Part shown: one piece after another, positions 33,053 through 56,194 of the stretch
How the letters are laid out: each line of letters begins with the position of its first letter
Position numbering within the stretch: position 1 is the stretch's first letter
Assembly (NCBI GenBank): GCA_028724885.1
Contig: JAQYTJ010000018.1
Span: 42,192 to 106,191 of the forward strand
DNA: 64,000 bases
Reading direction: 5' to 3'
Origin: Bacteroidales bacterium
Lineage (GTDB): Bacteria; Bacteroidota; Bacteroidia; Bacteroidales; UBA932
Translations under genes and position numbers: made by a program
The notes under the pieces: model-generated
Told to the model about the DNA's origin: nothing
Database searches by the model: none
What the model saw: only the letters and a program-made list of their open reading frames with translations

Positions 33053-33583
33053 TCAATATGCTTTCTTCATTCCTTCCTGGAATTTTTCATATAGAAATTT
33101 CGTCAAGCTATTGTCAGGCTTCAGCTTCAGGGCCTTCTCGTAGTTTTCGATTACATTCAGGTAGTAGCGTTGCCCATTTGTCGCAGGGTCTTGCACTATC
33201 CTGACCATGTACAGATAACCTCGCAGGGTGCATACATCGGACATGTCTGCATTCTGCATCTTCTCCATCCTGCCTATCTGCTGCTGAGCTTCCTTCAAGA
33301 AGCTTTCTGCCTGTGCGGCGTGGGGATTCATCACTGAGTAATTCAGGCATTGCAATCCAATTTGGTACTTTGCCTGGAGGCTGTCAGGAAACATTGCGTC
33401 TATCCTTTTCAGCTTGGCGATGCAATTTGCATAGGACTCGGGTGAATCCTGCTGGATTGCGGATACAGATTCTGCGATTAGTGAGTCCAGGCTTGGTTCC
33501 TGGGCAAGAATGTTGCAACTGGCAGCCATCACGAAGATTGCAGCGATAGAAAGTGCGTAGCACTTAAAAATTTGAGATGTCAT
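33053..33583 (-). CDS. Exported small TPR-like protein
   Basis: Signal peptide; repeated helical pattern (SYANCIAKLKRIDAMFPDSLQAKYQIGLQCL ... NVIENYEKALKLKPDNSLTKFLYEKF). Confidence 0.6.
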   Translation of the reverse strand: MTSQIFKCYALSIAAIFVMAASCNILAQEPSLDSLIAESVSAIQQDSPESYANCIAKLKRIDAMFPDSLQAKYQIGLQCLNYSVMNPHAAQAESFLKEAQQQIGRMEKMQNADMSDVCTLRGYLYMVRIVQDPATNGQRYYLNVIENYEKALKLKPDNSLTKFLYEKFQEGMKKAY

Positions 33584-35621: not shown

Positions 35622-35751
35622 TTTCCATGCGTTTTCCCTTGAGCGAAGATGGACAAGAAAAAACTGACGGCAAATTATTCGTGCCGTACAGCTAGGAAGA
35701 CGGACAGAAAACGTTCGCCGCTGACGAATCGCTAAAGAAAAAGACGAGTGT

Positions 35752-36591: not shown

Positions 36592-36597
36592 ATTCGT

Positions 36598-37296
36598 TCA
36601 TTTCTCGCCGACGTACATGCGGCATATTCCTGCAGAGAGAGCCTTGTGGCTGACATTCCTGAAGCCAGCCGCAGTCATCATATTCATGAATTCCGTCTTT
36701 TTTGGGAAATGCATCACCGATGCCGGAAGATAGTTGTAAGCAGCCTTGTCACCGGATATTCTCCCACCTATGCGAGGCAGCAGATGCAGGAAATACAGGT
36801 TGAAGAGCCACTTCATGAATCCGTTCTCTGGCAGAGAGAGTTCCAGAAGCACCAGCCTGCCTCCTGGCCTCAGCACCCTAAGCATCTCTCGAAGCCCTTT
36901 GCCCTTGTCTTCGAAATTCCTTATGCCGAAGGCAATCGTGACTCTGTCGAACGTGCAATCTGGGAAACGCAAGTTTTCGCCGTCTCCGGTTTCGATGGTA
37001 ATCTTGTCGGAAAGGCTCAGGGAATCCACCTTCTCCCGCATCACGGCGAGCATTCCTTCGGAAATATCCGCTGCTGTGATGTGGCAGTCTTTGATTTTCT
37101 GTGCGATGGCGATTGAGAAGTCCCCGGTGCCGCAAGCCAAATCTAATATTTCCAGGTGGCCGAGGCCGCCTGTTATGCGCTTTATCGCCTTCCGGCGCCA
37201 GGATTTGTCTATGTTCAGCGACATTATGTGGTTCAGAGCATCGTAGTCACCTGCGATGTGGTTGAACATTTCCTGGACCTTTTCTTTCTTCGGCAT
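36598..37296 (-). CDS. menG: Demethylmenaquinone methyltransferase (MenG/UbiE)
   Basis: MPKKEKVQEMFNHIAGDYDALNHIMSLNIDKSWRRKAI...LDLACGTGDFSI...AFGIRNFEDKGKGLREMLRVLRPGGRLVLLELSLP; start chosen at 37296. Confidence 0.93.
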   Translation of the reverse strand: MPKKEKVQEMFNHIAGDYDALNHIMSLNIDKSWRRKAIKRITGGLGHLEILDLACGTGDFSIAIAQKIKDCHITAADISEGMLAVMREKVDSLSLSDKITIETGDGENLRFPDCTFDRVTIAFGIRNFEDKGKGLREMLRVLRPGGRLVLLELSLPENGFMKWLFNLYFLHLLPRIGGRISGDKAAYNYLPASVMHFPKKTEFMNMMTAAGFRNVSHKALSAGICRMYVGEK

Positions 37297-37301
37297 ATTC
37301 G

Positions 37302-38198
37302 TTAAATTATCAATCCGATTCCGCAGAGGATGCTGAAAATAAAAGTGGACATCACCAGAAGCGGCAGCATCTTGTCTAAAGCTCTGCCTTCCAGGCGGCT
37401 TACGCCGCTCATGTGAATGAAGTATAGCGGCATGGTGAGCATGAACAGCCAATGCCATATTCTTTGAGGTAGGAGTGCCATGAAAATCACCATCGCCACC
37501 CATCCGAAACAGATGAGCAGGAAATGGTAAATCCTAGCCCTGCGCAGCCCCAGCTTCATTGCTACGGTCACTCTCTTAGGCGCATCGGTTTCCATGTCTC
37601 GCATGTTGTTGACATTCAGCACGCCGACGCTGAAGAAGCCTATGCTGGCGGCAGGGAGTAGGAGGCTGGCATCTAGCGAGTGTGCTATGACATAATAGGC
37701 GCCCATTACAGAGACAAGGCCAAAGAATATGAATACGAATATGTCGCCGAGGCCTTTGTACCCATATGGCGATTTGCCTAAAGTATATTTCATTGCCGCG
37801 ACTATGGCGCAGGCACCAAGAATGAGCAGGCAGATAGGTTCCAACTTCAGCATGGTGCCGAAAGAGCAGAGGATCATGAATATGCCAAAGATCATGCATA
37901 GGAATGTGAAAGTGAGGATGAGCTTCCTCATGTCGGCTAAGCTCATCTCGCCACTGTTCAAGCCGTATTCCGGTCCAACTCTGTCTTCATTATCGTTGCC
38001 GCTCAGCACATCACCAAGCTCGTTCGAGAGGTTCGACAGAATTTGAAGGCATACTGTAGTTGCAAATAGTAATATGATTGTCCCCCAATTGAATAACACC
38101 TTAGAGGCTGCTAAGAAAGAGGCTAAAATCACCCCTGAGAGCGAGAGGGGGAGGGTCCTCAATCGCATTGACCTCACGGCCGCTTTCAATTTCGCCAT
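37302..38198 (-). CDS. menA: 1,4-dihydroxy-2-naphthoate polyprenyltransferase
   Basis: MRLRTLPLSLSGVILASFLAA...QILSNLSNELGDVLSGNDNEDRVGP; UbiA superfamily, adjacent to menG. Confidence 0.92.
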   Translation of the reverse strand: MAKLKAAVRSMRLRTLPLSLSGVILASFLAASKVLFNWGTIILLFATTVCLQILSNLSNELGDVLSGNDNEDRVGPEYGLNSGEMSLADMRKLILTFTFLCMIFGIFMILCSFGTMLKLEPICLLILGACAIVAAMKYTLGKSPYGYKGLGDIFVFIFFGLVSVMGAYYVIAHSLDASLLLPAASIGFFSVGVLNVNNMRDMETDAPKRVTVAMKLGLRRARIYHFLLICFGWVAMVIFMALLPQRIWHWLFMLTMPLYFIHMSGVSRLEGRALDKMLPLLVMSTFIFSILCGIGLII

Positions 38199-39665: not shown

Positions 39666-41327
39666 ATGGATTGGATATCTGGACTGTTAGTTGAGCAGAA
39701 TTCCTTGCAGGCGGTGGTCGTGATATTGCTTATAATAGCCATCGGGCTTGGACTGGGCAGGGTAAAGATCGCCGGGGTCTCGCTCGGCGTGACTTTCGTT
39801 TTCTTTTGCGGGATATTGGCTGGTCACCTCGGACTTAGGATCAATCAGCAGATGCTTCAATTCGCCGAGAATTTCGGCTTGATAATTTTTGTCTATGCCT
39901 TGGGTCTCCAAGTCGGGCCTGGTTTCTTCAATTCATTCCGCAAGGGGGGAGTGAAGCTTAATCTATGGGGGCTTGCAGTCCTGTTCTTAGGCACTCTGCT
40001 GACAATACTGTTCAGTTTCATTGCCCACGTCTCGCTACCAGACATGGTTGGAATAATGTGCGGAGCGACGACCAACACGCCCGCTCTCGCCGCGGCGCAG
40101 CAGACCCTTGAACAGATGGGTATTGAAAGCAGCTCTCTGGCAATCGGGACGGCGGTCACGTATCCTCTCGGGGTGGTCGGCGTTATAATCGCTTTGATCG
40201 TGCTGGCAAAGTTCCTCGGAGGAAAGGAAAATTTGCAAGCTGTCGGAAAGGGGGAGGAAAATCCTGTATTTATTGCGACTTATGTGGTGAGCAATCCTGC
40301 GATTTTCGGGAAAACTGTCAGAGAAGTGGCTAGAATGTCTGCAAGCGCCTTCGTGATCTCTCGAATCTGGCGCAATGGCACAGTGAGCATTCCGCAATCT
40401 GCAACGGTCTTGGATGAAGGCGATAAGCTGCTCGTGGTGACTTCGGAAAAAGAGTTGGAGGAATTGCGCATCATATTTGGGAAAGAAGAGGAGAGAGACT
40501 GGAATCGTGGGGATATCGATTGGAACGCTATCGACAGCACTCTCGTTTCCCGGGTGATTGTCATAACGAAAAGGCATATAAACGGCAAGACCATCGGCTC
40601 ATTGAAGCTCAGGAATCATTACGACGTGAATATCAGTCGTGTGTTCAGGGCTGGCGTTACGCTTCTTGCCGAGCCGGATCTGACATTGCAGATGGGCGAT
40701 AGGATAGTGGTAGTTGGCAAAGAATCGGACATAAATAATTTGGAAACGAAATTTGGAAATGCGGTCAGGAACCTAAACGAGCCGAACCTCATTTCCATTT
40801 GCATAGGAATAATAATAGGGCTTGCAATAGGCTCCATTCCAATATCGTTCCCTGGAATTTCCGCTCCGGTGAGGCTGGGAATCGCCGGTGGACCCATCAT
40901 TGCTGGAATATTGATGGGGTCTTTCGGACCTAGGATCCACATGGTGACTTACTCCACTGAAAGTGCCAACCTGATGCTGCGCCGCCTCGGCCTGTCCATG
41001 TACCTTGCGTGCCTGGGGCTATCTGCAGGCGAACATTTCTTCGAGACGGTAGTCCGGCCGGAAGGCCTGCTTTGGATAGGCCTAGGATTTGTCATCACTA
41101 TAGTCCCGGTGCTGCTGGTGGGGTGGCTAGCATTGAAATTCGGTCATCTGGATTTAGGCTCGGTGACCGGCATGCTCTGTGGCTCCATGGCTAATCCTAT
41201 GGCTCTGACTTACGCCAATGACACGATTCCAAATGACAATCCCGCCGTGACTTACGCCACGGTCTATCCTCTTTCAATGTTCGTCAGGGTGCTGATAGCC
41301 CAGCTTCTACTAGTGCTGTTTCTATGA
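39666..41327 (+). CDS. Putative transporter of the AspT/YidE-YbjL family with TrkA-C (RCK_C) domains
   Basis: Two 5-6-TM blocks flanking two RCK_C-like domains; MCGATTNTPALAAAQQ and MLCGSMANPMALTYAND motifs. Confidence 0.88.
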   Translation: MDWISGLLVEQNSLQAVVVILLIIAIGLGLGRVKIAGVSLGVTFVFFCGILAGHLGLRINQQMLQFAENFGLIIFVYALGLQVGPGFFNSFRKGGVKLNLWGLAVLFLGTLLTILFSFIAHVSLPDMVGIMCGATTNTPALAAAQQTLEQMGIESSSLAIGTAVTYPLGVVGVIIALIVLAKFLGGKENLQAVGKGEENPVFIATYVVSNPAIFGKTVREVARMSASAFVISRIWRNGTVSIPQSATVLDEGDKLLVVTSEKELEELRIIFGKEEERDWNRGDIDWNAIDSTLVSRVIVITKRHINGKTIGSLKLRNHYDVNISRVFRAGVTLLAEPDLTLQMGDRIVVVGKESDINNLETKFGNAVRNLNEPNLISICIGIIIGLAIGSIPISFPGISAPVRLGIAGGPIIAGILMGSFGPRIHMVTYSTESANLMLRRLGLSMYLACLGLSAGEHFFETVVRPEGLLWIGLGFVITIVPVLLVGWLALKFGHLDLGSVTGMLCGSMANPMALTYANDTIPNDNPAVTYATVYPLSMFVRVLIAQLLLVLFL

Positions 41328-41330
41328 TGG

Positions 41331-41801
41331 CTAAAGGTACAGGGCATAGCTCTCTTTTATTGTGTCCATTACGAACGTCGACTGTATGGAACCGACCGAG
41401 TCTATTGTGCCTAAAACATTGATGATAAAATCGTTGTAGTATTTCATGTCGGGCGCATTGATTCTTAGCAAGTAATCGAATTCCCCGGCTATGTTGAAGC
41501 AGTCTGCCACCTGTGGGATATCCTTGATGACTTTTACGAAATCGTTGGCGATGTCTCGATTCATCTGCTTGAGCTTAACGCTGCAGAAAACGGTGAAGCC
41601 CAGATTCATCTTATCGGCATCAAGTATGGCGACATATTTCTTTATGTAACCCTCCTTTTCCAGCCGCTTCATTCTCTCGAAGACTGGCGTCGTGGAAAGG
41701 TTCACTTTGGCTGCCAGTTCTTTAGTTGTGATGCGTCCTTCTTCCTGAAGGACTCTCAGAATCTTGAGATCAGTCGCATCGAGTTTAGATGGATATTCCA
41801 A
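41331..41801 (-). CDS. Lrp/AsnC family transcriptional regulator
   Basis: LDATDLKILRVLQEEGRITTKELAAKVNLSTTPVFERMKRLEKEGYIKKYVAILD. Confidence 0.92.
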   Translation of the reverse strand: MEYPSKLDATDLKILRVLQEEGRITTKELAAKVNLSTTPVFERMKRLEKEGYIKKYVAILDADKMNLGFTVFCSVKLKQMNRDIANDFVKVIKDIPQVADCFNIAGEFDYLLRINAPDMKYYNDFIINVLGTIDSVGSIQSTFVMDTIKESYALYL

Positions 41802-42025
41802 AATTTATAAGTATTAAATGAATATATTCTATTAATATTCTAAATTCTATCGCAAATATAGAATATTTTACCAAATATTTAAAAAATATTGTTTGAAGAT
41901 TCTTTTAAAGCTAAATTTGCAATCGCTTTGTTGAAAGAAAGATCCTGACTTTCGTCAGGATGATCATGATGGTGCAGGACTAATACATAAACGTAGCGAT
42001 TTGCCCAAGTCATCCTGAATGACCC

Positions 42026-42053
42026 CCCGTCATCCTGAACTTGATTCAGGATC
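42026..42053. repeat. REP-like element copy (CGTCATCCTGAACTTGATTCAGGATCT)
   Basis: Same word as at ~30962-30989; a related copy AGATCCTGACTTTCGTCAGGAT lies at ~41940. Confidence 0.85.
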
Positions 42054-42123
42054 TTGCTGGCAAAGGATAGAGTGCAGGAATGTAAAAGTGCTGATACACA
42101 GCAGGAATGCAAAAAATTGAACG

Positions 42124-43146
42124 ATGATTAAACGAACTATAACATTGGAGAACAGTTTTGGTTTCGAGGCAGGAGGGAGCGTGGAGGGGCTTAATATTGC
42201 CTTCCATGCTTCGAAGCCTGAATGGAACGGCAAGGACAAGGTCATTTGGATTTGCCATGCTCTCACCGCCAACTCAGATCCTTCGGACTGGTGGCCAGGA
42301 ATGGTGGGTGAAGGGAAATTCTTCGACACGAATGAATATTTCATAGTCTGCGTGAACATTTTGGGTTCGCCATACGGCACGACAGGCCCTTCCTCCGTCA
42401 ATCCTGCGAGCGGGAAGCCATATTTCTTCGGTTTTCCAAAAGTTACGGTAAGGGATATGGTGAAGGCTCAGAACATCGTCAGAGAACATCTCGGACTGAA
42501 CCATATAGATTTCCTGGTCGGAGCGTCCATCGGCGGCTTCCAGGCTGTGGAATGGGCCGTGACTTATCCGGAAATAATCAGGAACCTGGCATTAGTCGCC
42601 ACAGACATCCGCGTGTCGCCTTGGCTCACAGCCTGGGTGGAAGCTCAGAAGATGGCTCTGCGGGCAGACCAGACCTTCGAGAAATGCGAATCTCTCGATG
42701 GGGGGAAGGAAGGCTTGAAATGCGCCAGGGCTCAGGCTCTGATATCTTACAGAAGCTACGATGGCTACTGCCTGACCCAGGCCGAAGAGTCTCTGGACAC
42801 CTTGTTCGCAGACAGGGCTGCCTCCTACGAGCGTTATCAAGGCGAGAAGCTGGCGAATCGATTCGACGCATATTCATATCTCAGCCTTTGCGACTCTCTG
42901 AACAGCCACAACATAGGCAGAGGTCGAGGCGGAGTGGATGCTGCGCTGTCAAGAATAACGGCGGGCACTACCGTCGTCGGCATCGACAGCGACTATCTTT
43001 TCCCGGCCAAGACAATGAAAGAGTGGCATTCAAAAATCTCAGGGGCGAAGTACGCAACCATCAGCTCAGCTTTTGGTCATGACGGCTTTCTACTTGAAAA
43101 TGAACAACTTACAAATATATTCAAAGAAATAATATGCAAGTCTTGA
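42124..43146 (+). CDS. metX: Homoserine O-acetyltransferase (MetX-like)
   Basis: WICHALTANSDPSDWWPGMVGEGKFFDTNEYFIVCVNILGSPYGTTGPSSVNPASGKPYFFGFPKVTVRDMVKAQ...LVGASIGGFQAVEWA. Confidence 0.93.
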   Translation: MIKRTITLENSFGFEAGGSVEGLNIAFHASKPEWNGKDKVIWICHALTANSDPSDWWPGMVGEGKFFDTNEYFIVCVNILGSPYGTTGPSSVNPASGKPYFFGFPKVTVRDMVKAQNIVREHLGLNHIDFLVGASIGGFQAVEWAVTYPEIIRNLALVATDIRVSPWLTAWVEAQKMALRADQTFEKCESLDGGKEGLKCARAQALISYRSYDGYCLTQAEESLDTLFADRAASYERYQGEKLANRFDAYSYLSLCDSLNSHNIGRGRGGVDAALSRITAGTTVVGIDSDYLFPAKTMKEWHSKISGAKYATISSAFGHDGFLLENEQLTNIFKEIICKS

Positions 43147-45560
43147 AATTCGGTGGCACTTCAGTCGCCACAGCAGATAATATCTCAAAAGTAATTTCTA
43201 TCGTCAATAAGGCGGTTAAAAAGGACAGAACCATTTTGGTTTGTTCTGCAATAAGCAAATGCACCGATGCTCTCATTGCAATTGGCGGCACTGCGGCCAA
43301 GCGCGACGAGAAATATAAGAATATGATAGATGTCCTTCAGGCCAGGCATCACGAGATAATCAGCGAACTTCTTCCTCCGGAATATGTTTCTTCAGTGACA
43401 AAGACGGTAGACCAACTCTTCGATTCTCTCCGAGGCATCGCTTACGGAGTGTATTTGCTTGGGGAGCTGTCGCCTACCAGCCTGGATGCCATCCAGAGCT
43501 ACGGCGAGCTGTTCTCGACAAAAATCATTGCCGCAGGCTTTTCTGCCAAGGGTATTGATAACCACTGGGTTGATTCCAGGAAAATCGTCAGGACGAATGC
43601 CGATAGAAGCGTGGACATCCAGCAGACAAGCAAGAATATCTTTGCCGTAGTCGACAGCAGTCCTTCCGTCAATCTGTTCATACTTCCTGGCTTCATTGCC
43701 TCAGACGAGCAGGGAAGGACTTCAACTCTTGGCAGAGGAGGGTCCGACTACACTGCCTCGCTGCTTGCTGTTGGCGTGAATGCCCGCTTGCTTGAAATAT
43801 GGACAGATGTTTCAGGAATGATGACTGCCAATCCCAAGATCGTTCCCCAGGCTCGCACGATTCGGAACATTTCGTATAGAGCCGCATTGGAGCTGTCTCA
43901 TTTCGGAGCCAAAGTCATATTCCCTCCTACCATCCAGCCTGTAGTTGCAGAGGGCATACCGATTTACGTAAAGAACACTTTCTCTCCGCAGGATGCAGGA
44001 ACCCTCATCGAGAAGAATCCGCCTCGCGGGGACGGAAACGTGATTGGAATATCCAATTCCGATAATATTGCGCTGATATCGTTGGAAGGTAGCGGAATGG
44101 TAGGCGTCCCAGGCTTCTCCAGCAGGCTCTTCGATGCCCTGACTCGCGCAGGGATAAACATCATACTCATCACTCAGGCCTCTTCCGTGCACACTATGTG
44201 CATAGCGATTTCTGAGAAGGACGCTCCGAAAGCAAAGAAGGCTGCGGACGACTGCTTCGCATATGAAATCTCTTTGGGGAAACTCAGGCCGCTGAAGGTG
44301 GAAAAAGGATTCTCAATCGTCTGCTTGGTCGGGGATGACGTTATTGGCCATAGCGGCGCCACCGGAAGGATGCTGGTCGCCCTAGGCCGCAACGGAATCC
44401 CGGTGCGCGCAACTGCCCAGGGGTCTTCAGAAAGGAATATCTCGGTGATTGTCCCTTCTGGCAGGGTGGATGACGCAATACGGCATATTCATAATGAATT
44501 CTTCGAGGCGCATATCATTCGCACGGTGAATCTTTTCATCGCAGGCTATGGCACCGTTGGAAAAGCTTTCATGAACATACTGACTCAGAAGAGCAATTTC
44601 ATTGCGCTGAACACAGGAAAACGCATCAAGGTATGCGGACTTTCGAATTCCAGGAAATACATCATTGATGCTGAAGGAATTGACACGTCCAAGGCTGGGG
44701 AATTGCTTGAGAGAGGGGAGAGTGCCGAGGCAGGTGCTTTTTTTGAAGCGCTTTCAGGACTGTCCATCGCTGATTCCATATTCGTTGATTGCACTGCCAG
44801 TCCTACTACGTTCGTCAAATATTCATCGCTTTTCCATCACGGCTATTCAGTGGTAGCTTGCAACAAGATTCCGTTCTCGGGGCCATATTCGCAATATTCA
44901 GATTTGAAATTGGATGCGTTTCGCGCTGGAGTGAGACTGAAATATGAGACCACCGCAGGCGCTGCTCTCCCTATCATCTGCACCATTGCCCAGCTCGTTG
45001 AGGCGGGGGACAAAATTTCCAAGATCGAGGCGGTGGTTTCGGGAACATTGAATTATCTGCTGAGCAATTATGACGGTGGTGATTTGGATGCATTGGTGAA
45101 AGACGCGCATGACAAGGGCTACACAGAGCCGGATCCTTCGGTGGACTTGAGCGGAACCGATGTTCTGCGCAAGCTGCTCATCATGGCTCGCGAATGTGGC
45201 TGTCAATTGGAGGCGGAGGATGTGGAACTGGAGCCTTTCCCGGACGGAGAGACTCTAAAAAAGGAATATGCAAAAGCAGCAAAGGCCGGTAAGTGCCTTC
45301 GCTATGTGGCCACGCTCATCCCAGGACCACGTGTGAGCGGTCCTGATTCCGAGGACAATGTTGAAGTCGTCACTTGCGAGTCGGCCAAAATAGGCATTCA
45401 GGCCGTTGATGCTGACAGCCCGATGTACAATCTGGAAGGCACTGACAATGAAGTAATCATCACGTCGGAGAACTACCCTAACTCCATCGTTATTCGTGGA
45501 GCAGGAGCAGGTGCCCCTCAGACCGCCGGTGGCCTTCTCGGAGACATCCTCAGCATCTGA
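43134..45560 (+). CDS. thrA: Bifunctional aspartate kinase / homoserine dehydrogenase I
   Basis: MQVLKFGGTSVATADNISKV... kinase and ACT domains, then HSD (FIAGYGTVGKAFMNIL...KYETTAGAALPIICTIAQLVEAGDKISKIEAVVSGTLNYLLS). Confidence 0.95.
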   Translation: MQVLKFGGTSVATADNISKVISIVNKAVKKDRTILVCSAISKCTDALIAIGGTAAKRDEKYKNMIDVLQARHHEIISELLPPEYVSSVTKTVDQLFDSLRGIAYGVYLLGELSPTSLDAIQSYGELFSTKIIAAGFSAKGIDNHWVDSRKIVRTNADRSVDIQQTSKNIFAVVDSSPSVNLFILPGFIASDEQGRTSTLGRGGSDYTASLLAVGVNARLLEIWTDVSGMMTANPKIVPQARTIRNISYRAALELSHFGAKVIFPPTIQPVVAEGIPIYVKNTFSPQDAGTLIEKNPPRGDGNVIGISNSDNIALISLEGSGMVGVPGFSSRLFDALTRAGINIILITQASSVHTMCIAISEKDAPKAKKAADDCFAYEISLGKLRPLKVEKGFSIVCLVGDDVIGHSGATGRMLVALGRNGIPVRATAQGSSERNISVIVPSGRVDDAIRHIHNEFFEAHIIRTVNLFIAGYGTVGKAFMNILTQKSNFIALNTGKRIKVCGLSNSRKYIIDAEGIDTSKAGELLERGESAEAGAFFEALSGLSIADSIFVDCTASPTTFVKYSSLFHHGYSVVACNKIPFSGPYSQYSDLKLDAFRAGVRLKYETTAGAALPIICTIAQLVEAGDKISKIEAVVSGTLNYLLSNYDGGDLDALVKDAHDKGYTEPDPSVDLSGTDVLRKLLIMARECGCQLEAEDVELEPFPDGETLKKEYAKAAKAGKCLRYVATLIPGPRVSGPDSEDNVEVVTCESAKIGIQAVDADSPMYNLEGTDNEVIITSENYPNSIVIRGAGAGAPQTAGGLLGDILSI

Positions 45561-45600
45561 TGCCTCCGGGCTTCTCCCGTGGCTCGACACGTGGAGTGCG
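45524..45600. repeat. 77-bp perfect direct repeat, copy 1 (includes the last codons of thrA)
   Basis: CGCCGGTGGCCTTCTCGGAGACATCCTCAGCATCTGATGCCTCCGGGCTTCTCCCGTGGCTCGACACGTGGAGTGCG; identical to 54605-54681. Confidence 0.98.
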
Positions 45601-45620
45601 GAGTCACGGGGTACGTATGC

Positions 45621-46532
45621 CTAATCCAGCAGGAAAGTCGCAACGACAGCGCAATGATCGGACGCAGTGTTCTGGATCACCTTGTATCCGGTACATTTGA
45701 CATGGATGTCCGGCGTCATGTACATTACATAATCAATCATGGAAGTAGGTGAGGCTCCTTTCCAGAATGAAGGGAAGGTGTACTGCGTCTCGGACATATA
45801 GCATTTCTGCATGTATCCGAAGATGAGTTTCATCGTTTCGGAAGTTGGCACTGCATTCAGATCCCCTGCAAGAAACAGTCGTCCGGGCATGCTGGAAAGT
45901 ATGTCTTTCAATTGTTTTGCCTGGTAGATTCTGCTCAGTTCTATGCTCCGGTGATCCAGATGCGTCGACACCATCCAGAATTCTTGGCCGTCCACCTTGG
46001 TTCGTATCGCGGCAACGGATCTGACTTCTCGTTCTTCCGTACCCTGCGTCTCGTCAGGCTGCATTTGGAAGTCTCGGCTTTCAATGATTTCATGTTTGGT
46101 TAGGACGGCATCGCCATATGTCCCCACGCCGCTGTAGGCGCCTGGCGTTCCGAACTCGAAAGCAATCGCATAATTCCACTTCCAGATGTCCTTTCCTCCG
46201 CTTAGTGCGCTCAGCCTCTTGCACAACTCTTCCGTATGGATGGTTCCCTTTGACCTGTTGGTTGCCGAATCAACTTCATTGATAGAGACGAAATCGGGAT
46301 TCTGCGCATGAATTACTTCTGCCAAGGCATCGAAATCCTTGCTTAGGTATAGACCTCGGGCACCGTAGATGTTATACTGCATGATCTTCACGAGAGTGCC
46401 TGATGGCGGGATAATGGCCTTGCTAGGATCTACGTATTTGTCTAGAGGATTGTCCTCTTTGCAAGATACGGCTAAAAGCAGCAGTATCCATGCAAGAAGG
46501 ACAATTCCAGCCATTTTTTCATTATGTTTCAT
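45621..46532 (-). CDS. Endonuclease/exonuclease/phosphatase (EEP) family lipoprotein
   Basis: Lipobox LLLAVSC; VKIMQYNIYGARG, VSINEVD, VSTHLDHRS, FLAGDLNAVP, SMIDYVMY, ASDHCAVVATF. Confidence 0.88.
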   Translation of the reverse strand: MKHNEKMAGIVLLAWILLLLAVSCKEDNPLDKYVDPSKAIIPPSGTLVKIMQYNIYGARGLYLSKDFDALAEVIHAQNPDFVSINEVDSATNRSKGTIHTEELCKRLSALSGGKDIWKWNYAIAFEFGTPGAYSGVGTYGDAVLTKHEIIESRDFQMQPDETQGTEEREVRSVAAIRTKVDGQEFWMVSTHLDHRSIELSRIYQAKQLKDILSSMPGRLFLAGDLNAVPTSETMKLIFGYMQKCYMSETQYTFPSFWKGASPTSMIDYVMYMTPDIHVKCTGYKVIQNTASDHCAVVATFLLD

Positions 46533-46542
46533 TGTTGTTGAG

Positions 46543-47535
46543 TTAAAAAATGTTCAATTCAGAAATCGCTGCTTGGTAAAACTCGCTATTTGCGCCGCCA
46601 TAGCATCTGTCGACCGAAAATCTAAGGTAACGTCCTGAGGTGTGATAATTCAGGAAAAACGTGTTTTCCTTCTCGAACGGAAGCGAATATGTCCCTGCGT
46701 CAGTCCAGTGCTCGTTGTCATTGCTTAATGAAATGGTCACTATTTTTGCCTGTCCGTTGTTCACCATGTTGCCGTTTTTTTCAAGACGGCTTTTGATACG
46801 TCCGCCGTGGACAGTCATGGACTTCTTCATGTCGATGATGGTCACGTGAGGAGGGGCTACTCTGTTGGGACTGAATTCTGTACCCCAATATGTCTGGTCG
46901 TCTCCGTCAAGCATAAGTTCTGCCGGAGTGTATTCTTGGGGGATGGCGCTGAAAGATGAACATGAAAGCACGGCCCAGTCGGTGCGGTCGAAATCTGTCG
47001 TGAACGGATTTTCATTGTATGAGCCACGTATGACGAAATAGGCTGACCTCAGTTTTTCATTAACTTTTATTGAGGTATCGCTTACTTCTGTAATGCTTAC
47101 AGGTAGGAGGTAAGGACCAGGACCTGGGATCCCGGCAGTATTTATTCTGATGGACATAGGCTCTGATCCGGATTTTCCGTGAAGGATAGTTACTTGATTA
47201 TTTTCCAATGAATAACAATCTTCTGGGAGTAGTTGATAGGTTGTCAAATTCAAGTCGTTGTAGGTTTCTAGGAGATCTGTGGCAACACTGAACGTGACAG
47301 TTACGTCCTGCTTGAGAGGGACGATGCCTCCATAATTCGCATACATTAAGACGACAGTGTCCTCGGGAATGGTCATGTCAAGAACGATGTCTCCATTGAA
47401 ACCTTTTCCTGAATAAATTACGGAATAGCTCTCGGGGAACTTAACGTTGAAATTTTCATCGATGGCATTTCCACAAGAATAACTGCCCCCAAGAATCACG
47501 GTAGCTAAAAGTAAAAGTTGATAATTGCGTTTCAT
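46543..47535 (-). CDS. DUF1735 and F5/8-type C (discoidin-like) domain surface lipoprotein
   Basis: Lipoprotein N-terminus; VVLMYANYGGIVPLKQDVTVTFSVATD...PEDCYSLENNQVTILHGKSGSEPMSIRINTAGI (DUF1735-like), then LDGDDQTYWGTEF...HVTIIDMKKSMTVHGGRI. Confidence 0.8.
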   Translation of the reverse strand: MKRNYQLLLLATVILGGSYSCGNAIDENFNVKFPESYSVIYSGKGFNGDIVLDMTIPEDTVVLMYANYGGIVPLKQDVTVTFSVATDLLETYNDLNLTTYQLLPEDCYSLENNQVTILHGKSGSEPMSIRINTAGIPGPGPYLLPVSITEVSDTSIKVNEKLRSAYFVIRGSYNENPFTTDFDRTDWAVLSCSSFSAIPQEYTPAELMLDGDDQTYWGTEFSPNRVAPPHVTIIDMKKSMTVHGGRIKSRLEKNGNMVNNGQAKIVTISLSNDNEHWTDAGTYSLPFEKENTFFLNYHTSGRYLRFSVDRCYGGANSEFYQAAISELNIF

Positions 47536-47570
47536 TTTAATTCGAATGTTATAGAATTGGGTGCAAAATG

Positions 47571-49415
47571 TTACCAGCCTGGATTCTGCACGATGTTTGG
47601 ATCCTTGTCAATCTCGCTCTGCGGGATCGGAAACAGGTAGTATGCTTTACGGAACACCCTTGTCTCGAAAACGACTCTCTGGTAGAAGCCAATCGCCCCA
47701 CCTCCGGTTAGACTAGAGCCACCGTTCATGTTCATGCCATAAAAAGGCCCACCGTCTGTCTGTTCTGCAATGAGCCACCGCCGTGTGTCGAAATAACGCT
47801 TCCACTCTTCGCAAAGTTCAACCCTGCGTTCGTGACGAATCTTTTGCCTCATGATCTCTTGACTCATGCCGGATTCCAAGCCAGGAAGGCCAGCGCGTTC
47901 ACGTATCTGGTTTATGTACTTCAGAATGTCGGGATTACCAGGATCATATTCATTTAAGGCTTCAATATAGTTGAGGAGGACTTCACCGTAGCGAATGAGA
48001 AGGAACGGGGGATTGCCTTGTTGGCCTGCTTTGTAATTGTACGAAGGAGAGACATGCTTCAGCCTTACATAACCTGTCCTAGGAGAATCGTGGGATGTGT
48101 TGCCCTCTGTCCCCCCATGATAGAATTTCCACTGATACTTATCCTTTTGGTTATTATAGATGGCATAAGAGCCATTGAAAGCTACAGACACATAAAAACG
48201 AGGTTCCCGCTTATTGTACATGTTCCAGCAGTTCTTGGGTGCGAATACCCATCCGGTCTCCGGATCTTTGTAGTCTTCTGTAATGAATCCGGTTTCGACA
48301 TAGCCAGAAGTAGGGTCGGAAATATCCTTCCCATTGGCCATCTGAAACTCATCGACCAGTTGCTGGGTTACTCCACTGCTTTCGTAGCCATTGGCATAGC
48401 CACGCGGGGTTCCGTGCCTGTGAAGATTGTCCGAGTGTGTGGTAAGGTAAAAAATCGCCTCTTTATTCCAGTTATCGAGGAAAACGTCGCGGCAGGAAAG
48501 ATAGGGATTGATGGTCTTTCCATCTCTATAATAAGTCTTGTAAAGCTCAAGAATGCCCAAGTCAATGATTTCCTTGCAGGCTTTAGCTGCTTTTTCCCAT
48601 TTGGAAGAATCATAACTCTCTGAAAAGAGCGGTGATCCATCCTTATTGGCTAAACCTGAATATGCGGGATTCCCGTTGAACTGAGGACTGGCTGCGTAGA
48701 GCAGGCAGCGAGCCTTAATAGCTTTGCAGAATAATCCGGTGACTCGACCTCTGTCAGATTCAATCTGCTCTGTGAAATGTAGCGGAAGATCTTCTGCTGC
48801 GGCATCGAATTCTTGGCAGATGTAGTCAACACATTTGTCATAAGGATCTCTTGCGCGAGTCATTCTGGGATCTTGCGAAGGAAGATCCCCAGGGGCTAAT
48901 TCATCCTCGGGAATGATGAATGGGCCATACTGGCGTAACAGACAGAAACAGAAATAGGCTCTCAGGGCACGCGCTTCTGCTTTATACTGTTTGATTCTCG
49001 AGAATTCCCCGTTCTTGATCATTTCTGCATTGGCTTCGATGTGTTGCATGAAATATGTGGCGGAACGTATGCCTCTGTAACTGTCCAGCCACATATTGTA
49101 GTAGTTGGAAGATGCATTCCAGTTTCCTAGATTGGCTGGATACATAAAGTATGCGCTTTCTCCAGGGCGGTCATAGGATTGATCAAGGTCGTCGGACATG
49201 GCATCAAGTGTAAGGTAGGATACTCTCGACTCGTCCTGAATATAGGCGTATATGCCAGCGAGGAAACGTTCGGCGTAGTTCTTTTCATTGAACACATCCT
49301 CGATCGTAATTCTATCGTTCGGAACCTGATTGAAGAAATCGTCGTTGCAAGAAACAACTGCAAAAGCGATCGGTAATGCCATCGTGGCTTGTATGATAAT
49401 ATTTTTTGTTTTCAT
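47571..49415 (-). CDS. RagB/SusD family nutrient uptake outer-membrane protein
   Basis: DDFFNQVPNDRITIEDVFNEKNYAERFLAGIYAY...EARALRAYFCFCLLRQYGPFIIPED...IRYGEVLLNYIEALNEY...IRHERRVELCEEWKRYFDTRRW. Confidence 0.95.
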   Translation of the reverse strand: MKTKNIIIQATMALPIAFAVVSCNDDFFNQVPNDRITIEDVFNEKNYAERFLAGIYAYIQDESRVSYLTLDAMSDDLDQSYDRPGESAYFMYPANLGNWNASSNYYNMWLDSYRGIRSATYFMQHIEANAEMIKNGEFSRIKQYKAEARALRAYFCFCLLRQYGPFIIPEDELAPGDLPSQDPRMTRARDPYDKCVDYICQEFDAAAEDLPLHFTEQIESDRGRVTGLFCKAIKARCLLYAASPQFNGNPAYSGLANKDGSPLFSESYDSSKWEKAAKACKEIIDLGILELYKTYYRDGKTINPYLSCRDVFLDNWNKEAIFYLTTHSDNLHRHGTPRGYANGYESSGVTQQLVDEFQMANGKDISDPTSGYVETGFITEDYKDPETGWVFAPKNCWNMYNKREPRFYVSVAFNGSYAIYNNQKDKYQWKFYHGGTEGNTSHDSPRTGYVRLKHVSPSYNYKAGQQGNPPFLLIRYGEVLLNYIEALNEYDPGNPDILKYINQIRERAGLPGLESGMSQEIMRQKIRHERRVELCEEWKRYFDTRRWLIAEQTDGGPFYGMNMNGGSSLTGGGAIGFYQRVVFETRVFRKAYYLFPIPQSEIDKDPNIVQNPGW

Positions 49416-49421
49416 GACTGA

Positions 49422-52400
49422 TTAAAAACTGAAATTAAGTCCAAGACTGTAAGATGCAGTGTTCGGATAGACACTTCCTCTTCCGTCTCCCTGTTCAACA
49501 TCCCAGAGCTTGAAAGGAGTGAATGTCAAGATATTGACGCCTTGGAAAAAGACGCTTGCGCTACTTAGCCCAATGCGTCGGACAAAAGTCTTTGGCAAGG
49601 AGTAAGTCATTTGGCAGTTCTTGAGTCTCAGGTAATGGGAAGGTAGCACGAACCAAGAATTCGCCTTGTAATTCAGGTTGTAGGTGGAACTTGGAGCTAG
49701 TCTTGGGTAGAAGGCATTTGGATTGGGATTATCTTCGGTCCAGCGATCTGTTATATTGCTCATGATGTTCCCATACGCAGTTCCACTTTCGAATGGGGCA
49801 ACACCCACGCCTGAAACTAAGGCATCCACATGTGCTGCACCCTGTAGCATGGCTGAAATGGCAATATTCCGGAAGGCAATGTTGAGACCGAAACCATAGA
49901 TGATTTCTGGCACCGTACCCCAGCCTATTGGAGCCATGTCATAGTCATTGATTTGGCCATCGCCGTTGAGGTCTTTAAATTTGATGTCTCCAGCCCGAGT
50001 GTTGCTGGCCTGGTAGGCGGAGGCGGCCACTTCTTCATCACTTTCGAATAGTTTCTCGGCAATCAGGCCGAACCGCTGTCCGACCCGGTGGCCCCTACGG
50101 TCTTGCCAAGGGTACGTGTATGTCATATCATTCTCGACAACTTTGTTGCGATTGAACGAGAAATTACCCATCGCGCTTATGAACCAATCTTGGCTGACTT
50201 GGTTGTGGTAGTCAAGCGATATCTCGAATCCTTTATTATTTACCTTGCCGATATTGCCAAGCGGAGACTTTCGAATGCCTAGATAGGCAGGTATTACCTG
50301 TCTTGAAAGGAAAATGCCGTCTCGCTTATCCTTGAACACATCGACTTGTATGTTTAGATTATTGCCGAGGGTGATTATATCAATGCCCAGATTGTATTTC
50401 CTGGCAGTTTCCCATGACACATCTACACCTTCGTCGCCGATAGCCAGGCCGGAATAGGATACCTTCTGACTGTCACCGAAGGTGTAGCCGGTCACGGAAT
50501 CTACTGTAGACAAATATGCAAAACGGCGTCCCGTGATCTTGGCATTTCCGACCTTGCCCCATGTCGCACGGATCTTCATGAACTGCACGGCATTTTTCAG
50601 TGGCTCGAAAAAGCGTTCGTTGGAAATGACCCAGCCAAGGCCGAAAGATGGAAAGAACCCGTATCGCTTGTCTGGATTGAAATTCTCAGAGCCATTGTAG
50701 CCAAAATTGAATTCGGCGAAGTAGCGCTCGCTATAGGCATAGGTATAGCGACCAGCTAAGCCTCTGAATCTATAAGGAAGAGCTGTTTCTAGCGATGTAG
50801 CCAACGTGTTCATTTCGTCGCTTTGGTTGAAGAGCAGCATCCCAGTAACATCGTGCTTGCCGAATGTCTGCTTGTAGTTTGCTGCAGCCTCCAGATAAAT
50901 GTTTCTATTGCCTTGGTGGGAATTGGCATAGGAAAGGGTCGTCGTCGTGGACGAGCGCGTCTGCTGAAGGATCAGTTTCCCTTCATCATCGCGGCCCAAT
51001 GCCATCCATGTATTCGGGGTGCGAGTAAAGCGATTGGAGGAATAGCTGTATGCATCGAACGAGAACATGCCCGTGACGGAAAGCCCCGGAACGAATGGAA
51101 TCTGCTGTGTCAGACGCAGATTAGAGAATACCTGACTTCTCCATTGATTGGCGTACCCCATTTCATTAAGAACCGCATAGGGATTTTGGACGCTACCCGA
51201 AGGTCTGTCTCCAATCTCTCCGTTGGGATAAACCGGCGCTACATAGTTAGGAGTTGCGTAGAAGGCAGATCCGAAGATTGCCGAGTTGCTGGAAGCCGGA
51301 TAGTTGGCATTGGCAAGATAGCCTTGGATGCCTAGCTTGATTTCCGTTGTCACGAAAGGTTTTAGGGTCATGTTGGATGTGACTGAATATCTCCTGTAAT
51401 AGGTATTCGCATTGTAATCGTGACTTGCGGAATCATTATTGTACAAGCCCTGTTCTTCAAAATAACCAAGGCCAATATAATAGATTGCCTTGTCGGAACC
51501 GCCACGGATATTTGCATTGGCGGAACGGTTGTGGCCGAATTTCTTGAAAAGGAGATCCATCCAGTCCACATTTGGATAAAGATATGGATCTTCTCCGCTC
51601 TCGGTCTTTGAAATTGCCTCGTCAGTGTACATCGGTTCCTCTCTACGGGTCGTAAAGGCCTCGTTGGTGAGTCTCATGTATTCAGGAGCGTCCACGAAAT
51701 CTGGGAGTTGGATGAATCGCGTGATTCCCTCGGTGTAGCGGATGTCGAATTGAGGTTTTCCTGCGCTTCCTGATTTCGTGTTTATTATGATGACGCCGTT
51801 AGCGCCTCGCACACCGTAAATTGCAGTAGCGGAGGCATCCTTCAGGATGCTGAAACTCTCGATATCTTCAGGATCGACATTTGATATGCTTCTAGGAACA
51901 CCATCTACGAGAGTAAGCGGAGCGCTCATGCCAGCTGTGAGCGTGGAAATTCCTCGAATATAAATTGATGCATCGTCATAACCAGGCTCTCCTGTTCTCT
52001 GCATGGACACTACTCCCGATATCCTACCAGCGAGAGACTGGGTTAGATTGGCGACGGGAACCTTGATTTCAGGCACCGAGATGCTTTGAGTCGCTCCAAT
52101 GAGGCTGATTCGCTTCTGGGTTCCATAGCCGACCACGGCAGCTTGCTCAAGGATTTCTGTGTCAGGCTGCAAGAATATATCTACGGAAGAAGACTCGCCG
52201 GCCTTGATTCGGATACTGTTGTAACCTAGATAAGAAAATTCGATTTCTGCCCCTCGTGGCACATCAATGATGTAGTTGCCATTGATGTCGCTGGCTGTTC
52301 CCTTGTTCATGCTGTTTCTTGGAATGACATTGACCCCTATGAGAGGGGAACCGTCTGTGGCGTCTTTCACGGAACCGGTTATCCTGACTGTTTTTTCGGA

Positions 52401-52778
52401 CTCCCGTGCCTGTGGAGACGTGGCCTCGGATTTTTTCCCAGCTTCTCTTTGAAACAAGGCGACCATGTTGCCTTTGATTTTGTATGAAATACCGGCTTTC
52501 GAGAATGCGGCATCCATGATTTCTTCGGTGCTAGCATTCCTGAGGTTCAAGTCTACCCTTCCGATTTGAGTGTTGCCAAGCAAGAAGTCATAGGAAAAGA
52601 CTATTCCTGTCTGGTTTGTGATGGCATCCGTCACTTTTTTGACAGTAGCTTCCCCCATGGAAATCTTCACATCATGGTGAATCTGCTTAGCGATTGAAAA
52701 ATTCCCAAATGGAGGCAGAGAGAATAAGACCAAGACGAGAAATATTCTCATTAGCGATAAAGTTACCTTTTTCATCAA
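49422..52778 (-). CDS. SusC/RagA family TonB-linked outer-membrane protein with N-terminal STN domain
   Basis: STN-like domain, carboxypeptidase-regulatory-like domain (ITGSVKDATDGSPLIGVNVI), plug VVGYGTQKR..., ISTLTAGMSAPLTLVDGVPRSISNVDPEDIESFSILKDASATAIYGVRGANGVIIINTKSG. Confidence 0.96.
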   Translation of the reverse strand: MMKKVTLSLMRIFLVLVLFSLPPFGNFSIAKQIHHDVKISMGEATVKKVTDAITNQTGIVFSYDFLLGNTQIGRVDLNLRNASTEEIMDAAFSKAGISYKIKGNMVALFQREAGKKSEATSPQARESEKTVRITGSVKDATDGSPLIGVNVIPRNSMNKGTASDINGNYIIDVPRGAEIEFSYLGYNSIRIKAGESSSVDIFLQPDTEILEQAAVVGYGTQKRISLIGATQSISVPEIKVPVANLTQSLAGRISGVVSMQRTGEPGYDDASIYIRGISTLTAGMSAPLTLVDGVPRSISNVDPEDIESFSILKDASATAIYGVRGANGVIIINTKSGSAGKPQFDIRYTEGITRFIQLPDFVDAPEYMRLTNEAFTTRREEPMYTDEAISKTESGEDPYLYPNVDWMDLLFKKFGHNRSANANIRGGSDKAIYYIGLGYFEEQGLYNNDSASHDYNANTYYRRYSVTSNMTLKPFVTTEIKLGIQGYLANANYPASSNSAIFGSAFYATPNYVAPVYPNGEIGDRPSGSVQNPYAVLNEMGYANQWRSQVFSNLRLTQQIPFVPGLSVTGMFSFDAYSYSSNRFTRTPNTWMALGRDDEGKLILQQTRSSTTTTLSYANSHQGNRNIYLEAAANYKQTFGKHDVTGMLLFNQSDEMNTLATSLETALPYRFRGLAGRYTYAYSERYFAEFNFGYNGSENFNPDKRYGFFPSFGLGWVISNERFFEPLKNAVQFMKIRATWGKVGNAKITGRRFAYLSTVDSVTGYTFGDSQKVSYSGLAIGDEGVDVSWETARKYNLGIDIITLGNNLNIQVDVFKDKRDGIFLSRQVIPAYLGIRKSPLGNIGKVNNKGFEISLDYHNQVSQDWFISAMGNFSFNRNKVVENDMTYTYPWQDRRGHRVGQRFGLIAEKLFESDEEVAASAYQASNTRAGDIKFKDLNGDGQINDYDMAPIGWGTVPEIIYGFGLNIAFRNIAISAMLQGAAHVDALVSGVGVAPFESGTAYGNIMSNITDRWTEDNPNPNAFYPRLAPSSTYNLNYKANSWFVLPSHYLRLKNCQMTYSLPKTFVRRIGLSSASVFFQGVNILTFTPFKLWDVEQGDGRGSVYPNTASYSLGLNFSF

Positions 52779-52841
52779 GGAGTTAATTTTAGTTTGACAT
52801 ATGTGATTATTGGATTGTCCGTTTTGGAATTTCTTTTTTGA

Positions 52842-53804
52842 CTAGTCTGAAGAGAAAGTAAATTCATGCCCAGAAACAAGCTCGAGCATTTCAACTACGT
52901 CTCCTAATGCTGCGGATTTCTGAAATCTGAATGTGATCAACTGGTTTTCGGGTACAAAATCATTTGTTTTTAGCCGTGTGTGATATGTCTTTTGAATGAT
53001 ATCAATGACTTCGCATATTGGGGCTTCGGAAATCATCACGACATGGTACCGATCCAGCAATATGTTCCATGCCGGGATTTGCTTGACCTCAAGATAATCC
53101 TTATGCGGACTGAAAATTGCTTGCTGCCCTGGCTTGAGTTCAACTATGTCCTTGCCCCTAGTATTGCGCAGTGACACCGAACCGGATGCCAAGATGGTTT
53201 CTATTTCTTGTTCATGGCAGGTAGCCTTTACATTGAATACAGTTCCATGAACGATGACCAGTGCTTTTTCTGTCTTGACTATAAAAGGCTTTCCTGGGTT
53301 TTTCGTGACATCAAAAAAAGCCTCCCCGTTGAGCCAGACTTCTCGTTTTTTTATGTTGTATTTATTGTTGTAGGACAATGTTGTTCCTTCCCGCAGGCAC
53401 ACTGTGCTGCCATCCGGAAGATCGAGTCGCATCACGACAGAATCGGGATTGCAAAACGAGGCGATATTTCTGTTTAAAATTTGTTTTCGATTCAACGAAA
53501 AAACTGCGATGATGACGAGTAAACATGCTGCCACAGAGAGTGTCCAGAAGATTTTTACAGACTTGCGCAGATGTTTCTGGCTTTCTTTCAGGGAGATGGC
53601 GCGGTTTAGGGAATCACGTGCCTTAACAAACGCCTTCTCACTCGAGAACCCTGTATCATCAATGCTGAGCCAGTGATGTACGGCTTTCATGTCAGCTAGA
53701 TGCCGACGGTCTTCTTCCGAAGCGGAAATGTTTTTAAGTATCTCTTTTTCTTCTTCAGGTGTAGTTCTACCTTCTAGGTAGGCGATGATAAGGTTTTCGT
53801 CCAT
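52842..53804 (-). CDS. FecR-domain/DUF4974 anti-sigma factor
   Basis: Single TM; LPDGSTVCLREGTTLSYNNKYNIKKREVWLNGEAFFDVTKNPGKPFIVKTEKALVIVHGTVFNVKA; C-terminal DUF4974 region. Confidence 0.92.
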   Translation of the reverse strand: MDENLIIAYLEGRTTPEEEKEILKNISASEEDRRHLADMKAVHHWLSIDDTGFSSEKAFVKARDSLNRAISLKESQKHLRKSVKIFWTLSVAACLLVIIAVFSLNRKQILNRNIASFCNPDSVVMRLDLPDGSTVCLREGTTLSYNNKYNIKKREVWLNGEAFFDVTKNPGKPFIVKTEKALVIVHGTVFNVKATCHEQEIETILASGSVSLRNTRGKDIVELKPGQQAIFSPHKDYLEVKQIPAWNILLDRYHVVMISEAPICEVIDIIQKTYHTRLKTNDFVPENQLITFRFQKSAALGDVVEMLELVSGHEFTFSSD

Positions 53805-53885
53805 AAAGTCTAGTCGCTAGTACTTTATATACGCACGACCATGGAAAAGTGCCTATTCTGAATATGAAAAAGTCTGAATCGCGTG

Positions 53886-54545
53886 TCAGGAACGTGTGAG
53901 GAAATAGAGCATTAAGATGTAAACGAGTGCCTTGTACGGACAAAGGTTGCTTCGGAGGATCTTCAGTGCCTTGTGAATCTGATTGTTTACGGTTGATACG
54001 GAAATCCCTAGACTTTCACTGATCTCTTTTCCCGAGAGGCCGTCGATGTAACTCATCCTGAACACTTCCTGACATTTCGGTGGAAGCAGAGACATGGCTG
54101 TTTCAAGGTCTCGTGAAAGTTCTTTTGTGTATAGTGCTTTGATCACGTCATTCCGGTCGATGTCATATTCACTTGCCAGCGTTTCGTCTATCCGTCTGGC
54201 AAACCACGAACGATAGTGGATGCTGTTATCCTCCTTTCGGATAAAATTGATTGATGTGTGGTAGACCGCTTTCAGGAGATATTGCCTCATCGAATTTCCA
54301 TCTTTGAGCGAGGCTCTGTTCTCCCATACTTTCATGAATACGGATTGAACGACATCTTGTGCATTGTCGTTTCCAACAATCAAACTGGCATAGTCTACAA
54401 GTGGTTTCCAATGAATTCCGAATAGCTCATTGAAGGCACCCTTGTCTCCTCTGCGAATTTTCGTTATCAAATCCGGCAATTCCACAATGAAAGGTTGTAA
54501 TCGTTCCGGGAGCAAATTTAAACTTTTTTTTTTATTTTCCAGCAT
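53886..54545 (-). CDS. ECF-type RNA polymerase sigma-70 factor
   Basis: AFNELFGIHWKPLVDYASLIVGNDNAQDVVQSVFMKVWENRASL...LPPKCQEVFRMSYIDGLSGKEISESLGISVSTVNNQIHKALKIL. Confidence 0.92.
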   Translation of the reverse strand: MLENKKKSLNLLPERLQPFIVELPDLITKIRRGDKGAFNELFGIHWKPLVDYASLIVGNDNAQDVVQSVFMKVWENRASLKDGNSMRQYLLKAVYHTSINFIRKEDNSIHYRSWFARRIDETLASEYDIDRNDVIKALYTKELSRDLETAMSLLPPKCQEVFRMSYIDGLSGKEISESLGISVSTVNNQIHKALKILRSNLCPYKALVYILMLYFLTRS

Positions 54546-54604
54546 CGGATCAGTCTAGAGCCGGCCATCTGCGAGTTTGAGTATCATGTTATCGCCGGAT
54601 ATGT

Positions 54605-54681
54605 CGCCGGTGGCCTTCTCGGAGACATCCTCAGCATCTGATGCCTCCGGGCTTCTCCCGTGGCTCGACACGTGGAGTGCG
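54605..54681. repeat. 77-bp perfect direct repeat, copy 2
   Basis: Identical to 45524-45600; lies between the ECF sigma gene start and the porin gene. Confidence 0.98.
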
Positions 54682-54787
54682 TCAAGCGCTGTAATCGAAT
54701 CGTAATAAAATTGTGACAAACGTGTAACAAAAGAGTATTTTTTACGTTATTCATATGCCCGAAATTCGCAAGGGTAAATGAGATTTT

Positions 54788-55822
54788 ATGAACAGCAAGG
54801 CAATACTGCTCGTGCTAGCCGGTTTTATTCCCTGTCTAGCACATGCGCAAGACTCGACGAATGTTAAGAAAGTCCCTCAGATTGGTGGCACCATCAGAGC
54901 AAAATACGAATATCAGACGAGTGAAGGAGAAGGACGCTTCGAGGTCAGGAACGCTCGCATAAACGTGACGGGAGGCATCTCTTCTGCCGTTTCATATAAA
55001 GCCGAGATTGATCTCTGCGATGAGGGCGCCATAAAGATGCTGGATGCCTATGCTCGAATAAAGCCTTTCAGGAATTTCCAGTTCACGATTGGTCAGATGA
55101 GGGTGCCATTCACCATCGATGCCCACAGATCTCCTCATCAGCAATATTTTGCCAATCGCTCGTTCATAGCTAAGCAGGTCGGAAATATCCGAGATGTCGG
55201 TGCAGCCGTAGGCTATGCAATTGAAGGGACGGTTCCTGTGTTGTTGCAGGCTGGCCTTTTCAATGGTTCAGGATTGACGAACCAGAAGAATTACTGGACC
55301 AGCAGCGTGAATTACTCAGCCAAGGCTCAAATTTCTCTGCTCAGGCCTTTGACCATGACTCTGAGCGTGCAGAAGATAAAGCCGGATTCCATCTCGGTGA
55401 TGATGTACGATGCCGGGCTGAGCCTGAGACTTGGCGATTTCTTTGCCGAGGCCGAATACCTGTACAAGCGCTATGCATGCAATGCCTTTCATCCGGTGCA
55501 TTCAGTGGACGCTTTCATAAACTATGACATATTCATTGGGAAAAGTCTGGTTAAGAAAATATCACCTCTCGTTCGTTATGACTATATGAGTGACCATAGT
55601 GATGGGAACCGCTACTTGAATGGTTCAGCGGACGCCGCAGGAACCCTTATCATCAACGACTACCAGCGCAGCAGGGTGACAGCAGGAGTGACCATCAGCC
55701 TCTCCAAACCTTTTCTTTCGGACATCCGCATCAATTATGAAAAGTACTTCTACCGCGATGGCGCAGTTCCGAAGACCTCGGAAAAAGACAAAATAGTCAT
55801 CGAATTCATGACCCATTTCTAG
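54788..55822 (+). CDS. Phosphate-selective porin O/P-like outer-membrane protein
   Basis: Signal peptide; GTIRAKYEYQTSEGEGRFEVRNARINVTGGISSAVSYKAEIDLCDEGAIKMLDAYARIKPFRNFQFTIGQMRVPFTIDAHRSP. Confidence 0.82.
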   Translation: MNSKAILLVLAGFIPCLAHAQDSTNVKKVPQIGGTIRAKYEYQTSEGEGRFEVRNARINVTGGISSAVSYKAEIDLCDEGAIKMLDAYARIKPFRNFQFTIGQMRVPFTIDAHRSPHQQYFANRSFIAKQVGNIRDVGAAVGYAIEGTVPVLLQAGLFNGSGLTNQKNYWTSSVNYSAKAQISLLRPLTMTLSVQKIKPDSISVMMYDAGLSLRLGDFFAEAEYLYKRYACNAFHPVHSVDAFINYDIFIGKSLVKKISPLVRYDYMSDHSDGNRYLNGSADAAGTLIINDYQRSRVTAGVTISLSKPFLSDIRINYEKYFYRDGAVPKTSEKDKIVIEFMTHF

Positions 55823-56194
55823 ACAAACGTTCATCCTATGCTTCGCTCGTCATCCATTCCTCACCATAGTCATCCCATCTACACACGTCACCCAGAACCC
55901 GATTCTGTCCATACGTTTGCAATTAGCGGGCAGGCGTGTTTGCATCAGAAGGCGCTACACACCACGTTGGCCTGCCTCCACACCCTTTCAAGAAGCAGCC
56001 TGTTGACTGAATCTCCCTTGTCATGGTGATCCAAATTTAATGGCAACGGTGTTGTGCTACCGTATGGTCTGGAATGGAGGACCGCATTGCCCACCCAGTT
56101 TACCAGAACCGGGGTAAGCGATGGGAATATTACTTCTAGACCCATAGGATTCTGGTCGCCGTTGCCGTCAAGTATGGATAAATACGACATCGTT

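Follow-up and report, generated by a model that had tools for sequence, protein, structure and literature searches.

The window analysed here is a stretch of 64,000 nucleotides from a rumen Bacteroidales genome, in which a nine-kilobase SusCD nutrient-uptake gene set is located directly after thrA. The six cargo genes of this island, whose gene calls are backed by Pfam and NCBIfam profiles, lie between two copies of a short direct repeat. The features of the locus are the following (window coordinates; the empty relatives, including G132, are described below).

43134 to 45560, plus strand: thrA (aspartate kinase - homoserine dehydrogenase), the intact target gene (open reading frame; Pfam AA_kinase, ACT and Homoserine_dh)
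45524 to 45600, plus strand: repeat copy 1, made of 37 nt of the thrA end including TGA and 40 nt thereafter; same as the single copy in the empty G132
45621 to 46532, minus strand: EEP-family lipoprotein (Exo_endo_phos, Pfam PF03372; PDB relative 4ruw)
46543 to 47535, minus strand: DUF1735 (BT_3987-like_N) and F5/8 type C (discoidin) protein (Pfam PF08522 and PF00754)
47571 to 49415, minus strand: SusD homologue (Pfam PF07980; PDB SusD homologues)
49422 to 52778, minus strand: SusC/RagA TonB-dependent transporter (TIGR04056, 974.7 bits)
52842 to 53804, minus strand: FecR-type anti-sigma factor (Pfam PF04773)
53886 to 54545, minus strand: ECF sigma factor (Bacteroidetes Sig70_bacteroi1; TIGR02985, above cut-off)
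54605 to 54681, plus strand: repeat copy 2, made of a remnant of the thrA 3' end and 40 nt thereafter, abutting the porin-side flank
54788 to 55822, plus strand: porin O/P family gene, directly after thrA in the empty relatives (Pfam PF07396; synteny)

When the two repeat copies are compared, 77 of 77 positions match, and this identity ends abruptly on both sides. The repeat consists of the final 37 nt of thrA with the TGA stop codon, and of 40 nt of non-coding downstream DNA, and its copies are 9,081 bp apart. It occurs exactly twice in the 2.74-Mb genome and is, local tandem repeats excepted, the sole exact direct repeat of more than 30 bp in the ~104 kb of the 106-kb contig that were read; a match of 77 bases is not expected to arise by chance. 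No structured RNA or att-like RNA family is found within the repeat. With a sigma factor, FecR, SusC and SusD in one operon, the island has the composition of an ECF-regulated SusCD locus. Its non-genic DNA is limited to 20 bp (45601-45620) on the left and 59 bp (54546-54604) on the right, each between a repeat and the cargo gene next to it, which leaves no room for an integrase remnant. There is no recombinase gene beside either repeat, the interval being occupied by six non-recombinase genes, and the island contig has no Phage_integrase match, the ten matches of this genome all being on other contigs. The anatomy described in the first-pass annotation, with a perfect thrA 3'-end repeat whose ends are exact and which encloses only these six genes and no recombinase, is confirmed in each of these aspects.

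Three close relatives were found by scanning species representatives with ThrA, being G132 (RUG142, locus L147), G411 (UW_MP_BACTE5_2, locus L145) and G159 (UBA1680, locus L146). In G132 and G411, thrA is followed by a single repeat and then by the porin gene, with no island; when these genomes are aligned with the left and the right flank of the island, the two alignments share 77 bp. The single copy of G132 is identical to both window copies, and the copy of G411 differs at five positions. In G159, six homologous cargo genes are present directly after thrA (70-96% identity by 250-bp window); on the far side of this island there is a decayed thrA 3'-end remnant whose border codon matches that in the window, and it is followed by other DNA, the porin gene being missing. 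Judged from these alignments, the thrA island is a genuine insertion that is polymorphic among strains, and it is bracketed by repeats in two genomes, the window genome and G159. The empty site that had been predicted from the window (thrA, one 77-bp copy, porin gene) is found in two close relatives, and G159 has the same cargo next to thrA. It had been proposed that a six-gene block ancestral at this position without repeats would speak against an insertion; in the occupied G159, the thrA-end repeat is present as well. Homologous six-gene sets also occur in G050, G182 and G048, as longer loci at other places with ~60-68% identity in SusD, and no such bracketing repeats are found around them. 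A word search of 400 genomes gave doubled words in G000 and G159 only; its spacing-to-stop pattern missed most thrA genes, and it is informative little beyond the four close genomes.

The repeats are also informative when their alleles are compared. Repeat positions 7 and 19 are T and A in the window and in G132, and both are C in the thrA end and in the far copy of G159; this far copy has three further changes. The far copy thus tracks the thrA of each occupied genome, and the repeats have been remade or homogenised per lineage. Such lineage-matched repeats suggest either that insertion has occurred twice at the same thrA codon or that the copies have been homogenised within each lineage, and both origins require recombination at the thrA site. 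The gap between thrA and the island is 40 bp in the window versus 27 unrelated bp in G159, with the left island boundary at the same place, and the 40-bp non-coding part of the repeat is not present in the left copy of G159. The repeat extent varies from 33-41 bp in G159 to 77 bp in the window. The island junctions are homologous between these two genomes.

The divergence of the sequences around the island is not uniform. Between the window and its relatives, dS is 0.2 to 0.35 across most of the aligned stretch, and higher in places, whereas the metX-thrA and porin flanks have a dS of just 0.02 to 0.045 when compared with G132, which indicates that the DNA around the island has recently undergone homologous exchange. 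This G132-like block has two parts.

42012 to 45600, no strand assigned: left part of the G132-like block, 98.8% identical to the empty G132 (rest of the genome stretch ~90-92%)
54605 to 55836, no strand assigned: right part of the G132-like block, 99.2% identical to the empty G132

The window region 32907-38198 is mostly 98-99% identical to G159 (mostly dS 0.01-0.08), the neighbouring genes being ~88-94% identical, and it points to a recent exchange in which the partner lineage was not that of the thrA block. The island itself, compared with G159, has a core-like half, with dS values of 0.15 for the sigma factor and 0.22 for FecR, and a divergent half, with values of 0.61 for SusC, 0.71 for SusD, 1.59 for DUF1735 and 0.81 for EEP, which suggests that the operon is a mosaic or that its transport half is evolving faster. 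Elsewhere in the window, at 39666-41801, a transporter and an Lrp-type regulator have a dS near 0.75-1.1 versus all three relatives, the proteins being 90-97% identical, and this looks like a replaced allele. An interspersed palindromic repeat family, GTCATCCTGAACTTGATTCAGGATCT, is seen at window positions 30821-30989 and 42009-42054, at L146:21507-21554 and in L283, and its members are often located at insertion/deletion borders between relatives.

A second example in the same genome is found in stretch L236 (contig C13), one of the 29 stretches by which the SusD genes of this genome were surveyed. The order is SusC1-SusD1, repeat, SusC2-SusD2, repeat, and the copies (L236:10498-10651 and 16413-16566; 154 bp, 89% identity) comprise the last 43 nt of susD1 and ~110 nt that include an intrinsic terminator. 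The repeats at thrA and in L236 both start close to 40 nt upstream of a stop codon. In G411, this locus has SusC1-SusD1, a single repeat and the downstream gene, the second unit being absent; in G132 the second unit is also absent and the single repeat is truncated; in G159 the second unit and a repeat are present and the first unit is absent. The occupancy of the second unit across the relatives is the same as the occupancy at thrA. Two states are seen at thrA, the operon or none, and at L236 there are alternative SusCD units in G132 and G411 versus G159.

Two further SusD stretches can be mentioned. In L234 (contig C5), two copies of a gene for a small secreted protein (1068-1668 and 9575-10178; a 604-bp whole-gene repeat, 88% identical) enclose an 8.5-kb SusCD unit that has two oxidoreductase genes, and this unit is present in all three relatives; the segment L234:700-980 belongs to a dispersed repeat of ~250-280 bp, of which each relative has some 20 or more copies with identities of 80-93%. 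In L253 (contig C21), a 75-bp repeat (79% identity) of the mdh 3' end and terminator is found at 880-954 and 10260-10332, with the repeat of the mdh end located at a susD 3' end. All three relatives lack the SusCD unit of this mdh/SusD candidate, yet a clean empty site is not seen, and as a third case of a bracketed islet it is unproven. Repeat bracketing around SusCD is seen in three of the 29 SusD stretches versus none of 20 SusD-free stretches when an interspersed repeat family is set aside in the latter; enrichment is not established by these counts (Fisher p = 0.26).

It is probable, in our assessment with modest confidence, that the thrA island is a strain-variable, recombinase-free SusCD islet at a gene 3' end, which is gained, lost and reshuffled by general homologous recombination. 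The donor DNA would carry the operon with a thrA 3' end attached, either as a circle or as part of a longer fragment. The donor thrA 3' end would pair and recombine with the resident one, leaving an intact thrA on the left and the remnant on the right; a crossover between the direct repeats would remove the operon cleanly, giving thrA, one repeat and the porin gene; and flank exchange with relatives, together with conversion between the copies, would keep the repeats alike. In this scheme the circular intermediate, RecA dependence and the order of gain and loss are hypothetical, the four genomes being compatible with gain as well as with loss. The lack of a recombinase, taken with the strong signal of homologous exchange around the island, favors general homologous recombination, and the fact that the target genes and the repeat sequences at thrA and L236 are unrelated, and the repeat lengths different, also argues for a general rather than a site-specific process. 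However, 77 bp, like the 33-41 bp of G159, is short for efficient RecA-dependent recombination, site-specific islands at the 3' ends of genes likewise typically have repeats that start close to 40 nt before the stop codon, and the left boundary lies at the same place in both occupied genomes despite the differing DNA before it.

Because the same thrA codon serves as the border in two genomes and the repeats start ~40 nt before a stop codon, a site-specific recombinase acting in trans has to be considered. The repeats would then be attL and attR of an integrase-free, cis-mobilisable island, a mode of movement that has been proposed for the microcin H47 island of E. coli and for CIMEs, and the recombinase would be encoded elsewhere, for which the ten Phage_integrase proteins on other contigs are candidates. 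The reconstituted gene 3' end and the direct repeats agree with this explanation, and so does the exact empty site, at which G132 and G411 retain one repeat as is the case for integrase-driven islands. Nevertheless, we regard it as unlikely. There is no space for recombinase arm sites, the core is not constant between the occupied genomes, and the L236 islet has an unrelated core. No copy of the 77-bp core is found in phages, plasmids or viral contigs, so that no relative of these kinds with the thrA 3' end is seen. Likewise, no thrA-end repeat is present within up to 10 kb downstream of thrA in 17 more distant thrA loci, so that, by this repeat test, no integrase-bearing element is seen at these loci, and a thrA 3' hotspot in the genus is unsupported. 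Of the origins put forward in the first-pass annotation, homologous exchange thus fits best, whereas a trans-mobilised or decayed element of the integrase type fits poorly with the lack of arm-site space, the unrelated core at L236, the variable repeat extent and the 17 loci lacking a thrA-end island.

It is rather improbable that the island was inserted a single time, before the four genomes diverged, was lost from G132 and G411 by deletion between the repeats and has been immobile since. The homologous island junctions in the window and G159 and the core-like dS of the sigma factor and FecR are in agreement with such a history, and deletion between direct repeats is a simple event. On the other hand, two separate losses are required, conversion is needed to keep 77 bp identical, including 40 non-coding bp, and the part from SusC to EEP is far more divergent than the core (dS 0.6-1.6). 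A more speculative idea, to which we give little credence, is that a trans-acting recombination system with relaxed specificity accumulates SusCD units at the 3' ends of genes and each time copies the last ~40 coding bases and the terminator region; if this were true, both the target gene and its terminator would be regenerated, and a general integrase-free route to Bacteroidales nutrient loci would exist.

Finally, 77 is a common assembler word length, being the default k of SPAdes, and the genome is a draft assembly of metagenome type in 58 contigs. That the second repeat copy was made by the assembler or by the merging of two strains is nevertheless very improbable, since dozens of contig-end pairs in this genome overlap by exactly 141 bp, not 77 bp (the top k looks like 141, by inference that of MEGAHIT), so that longer unique words embed each copy and the two copies are not one graph node that is traversed twice, which excludes a k = 77 artefact, and since the independently assembled G159 has the matching order of thrA, operon and thrA 3' end.

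SusCD sets differ greatly among Bacteroidales, and for the most part the known routes of their acquisition involve conjugative elements. In the present case, one operon either occupies a precisely defined site or is missing from it, the empty allele is available and the same genome contains a second example. General homologous recombination at gene 3' ends would provide a concrete model for the gain and loss of SusCD loci without mobility genes, with two sites, thrA and L236, for tests.

The thrA islet can be compared with several known systems. When integrase-driven islands insert at gene 3' ends (tRNA, ssrA), the target 3' end is regenerated and a second copy is left at the far end. This is also the arrangement at thrA; unlike such islands, the thrA island has no integrase, and its core is constant neither across loci nor across the occupied genomes. 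CIMEs are bordered by attL/attR direct repeats, have no integration or transfer genes and derive from ICEs or IMEs with which they share att sites (PMC5704250). The thrA island likewise has attL-/attR-like repeats at a gene 3' end and lacks integration and transfer genes, but no related ICE or IME sharing these sites, or remnant thereof, was found among the phages, plasmids, viral contigs and 17 more distant thrA loci. In Neisseria, minimal mobile elements (Saunders and Snyder 2002, described in PMC3898611) are cassettes of whole genes; strains differ in the cassette that they have at a given chromosomal site, and its movement requires homologous recombination alone, the homology being supplied by two conserved flanking genes. 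The logic of the thrA islet, if it moves in this way, is close to that of these elements; unlike them, with their distinct conserved flanks and no direct repeat, the thrA cassette is an addition to its site and has on both sides the 77-bp repeat derived from the 3' end of a single gene. The microcin H47 island of Escherichia coli is 13 kb, has direct repeats and contains no integrase; its recombination functions are supplied by other strains or K-12, hybrid junctions occur at several identity segments, and its exchange, measured by experiment, is independent of homologous recombination functions (PMC3191183). The thrA islet differs in that its repeats include the 3' end of a housekeeping gene, in that it is known from sequence alone and in that a matching anatomy is found at two unrelated loci, thrA and L236. 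Like the H47 island, it is small, bracketed by repeats, without a recombinase and present or absent among strains, and its anatomy is closest to that of integrase-free islands such as H47.
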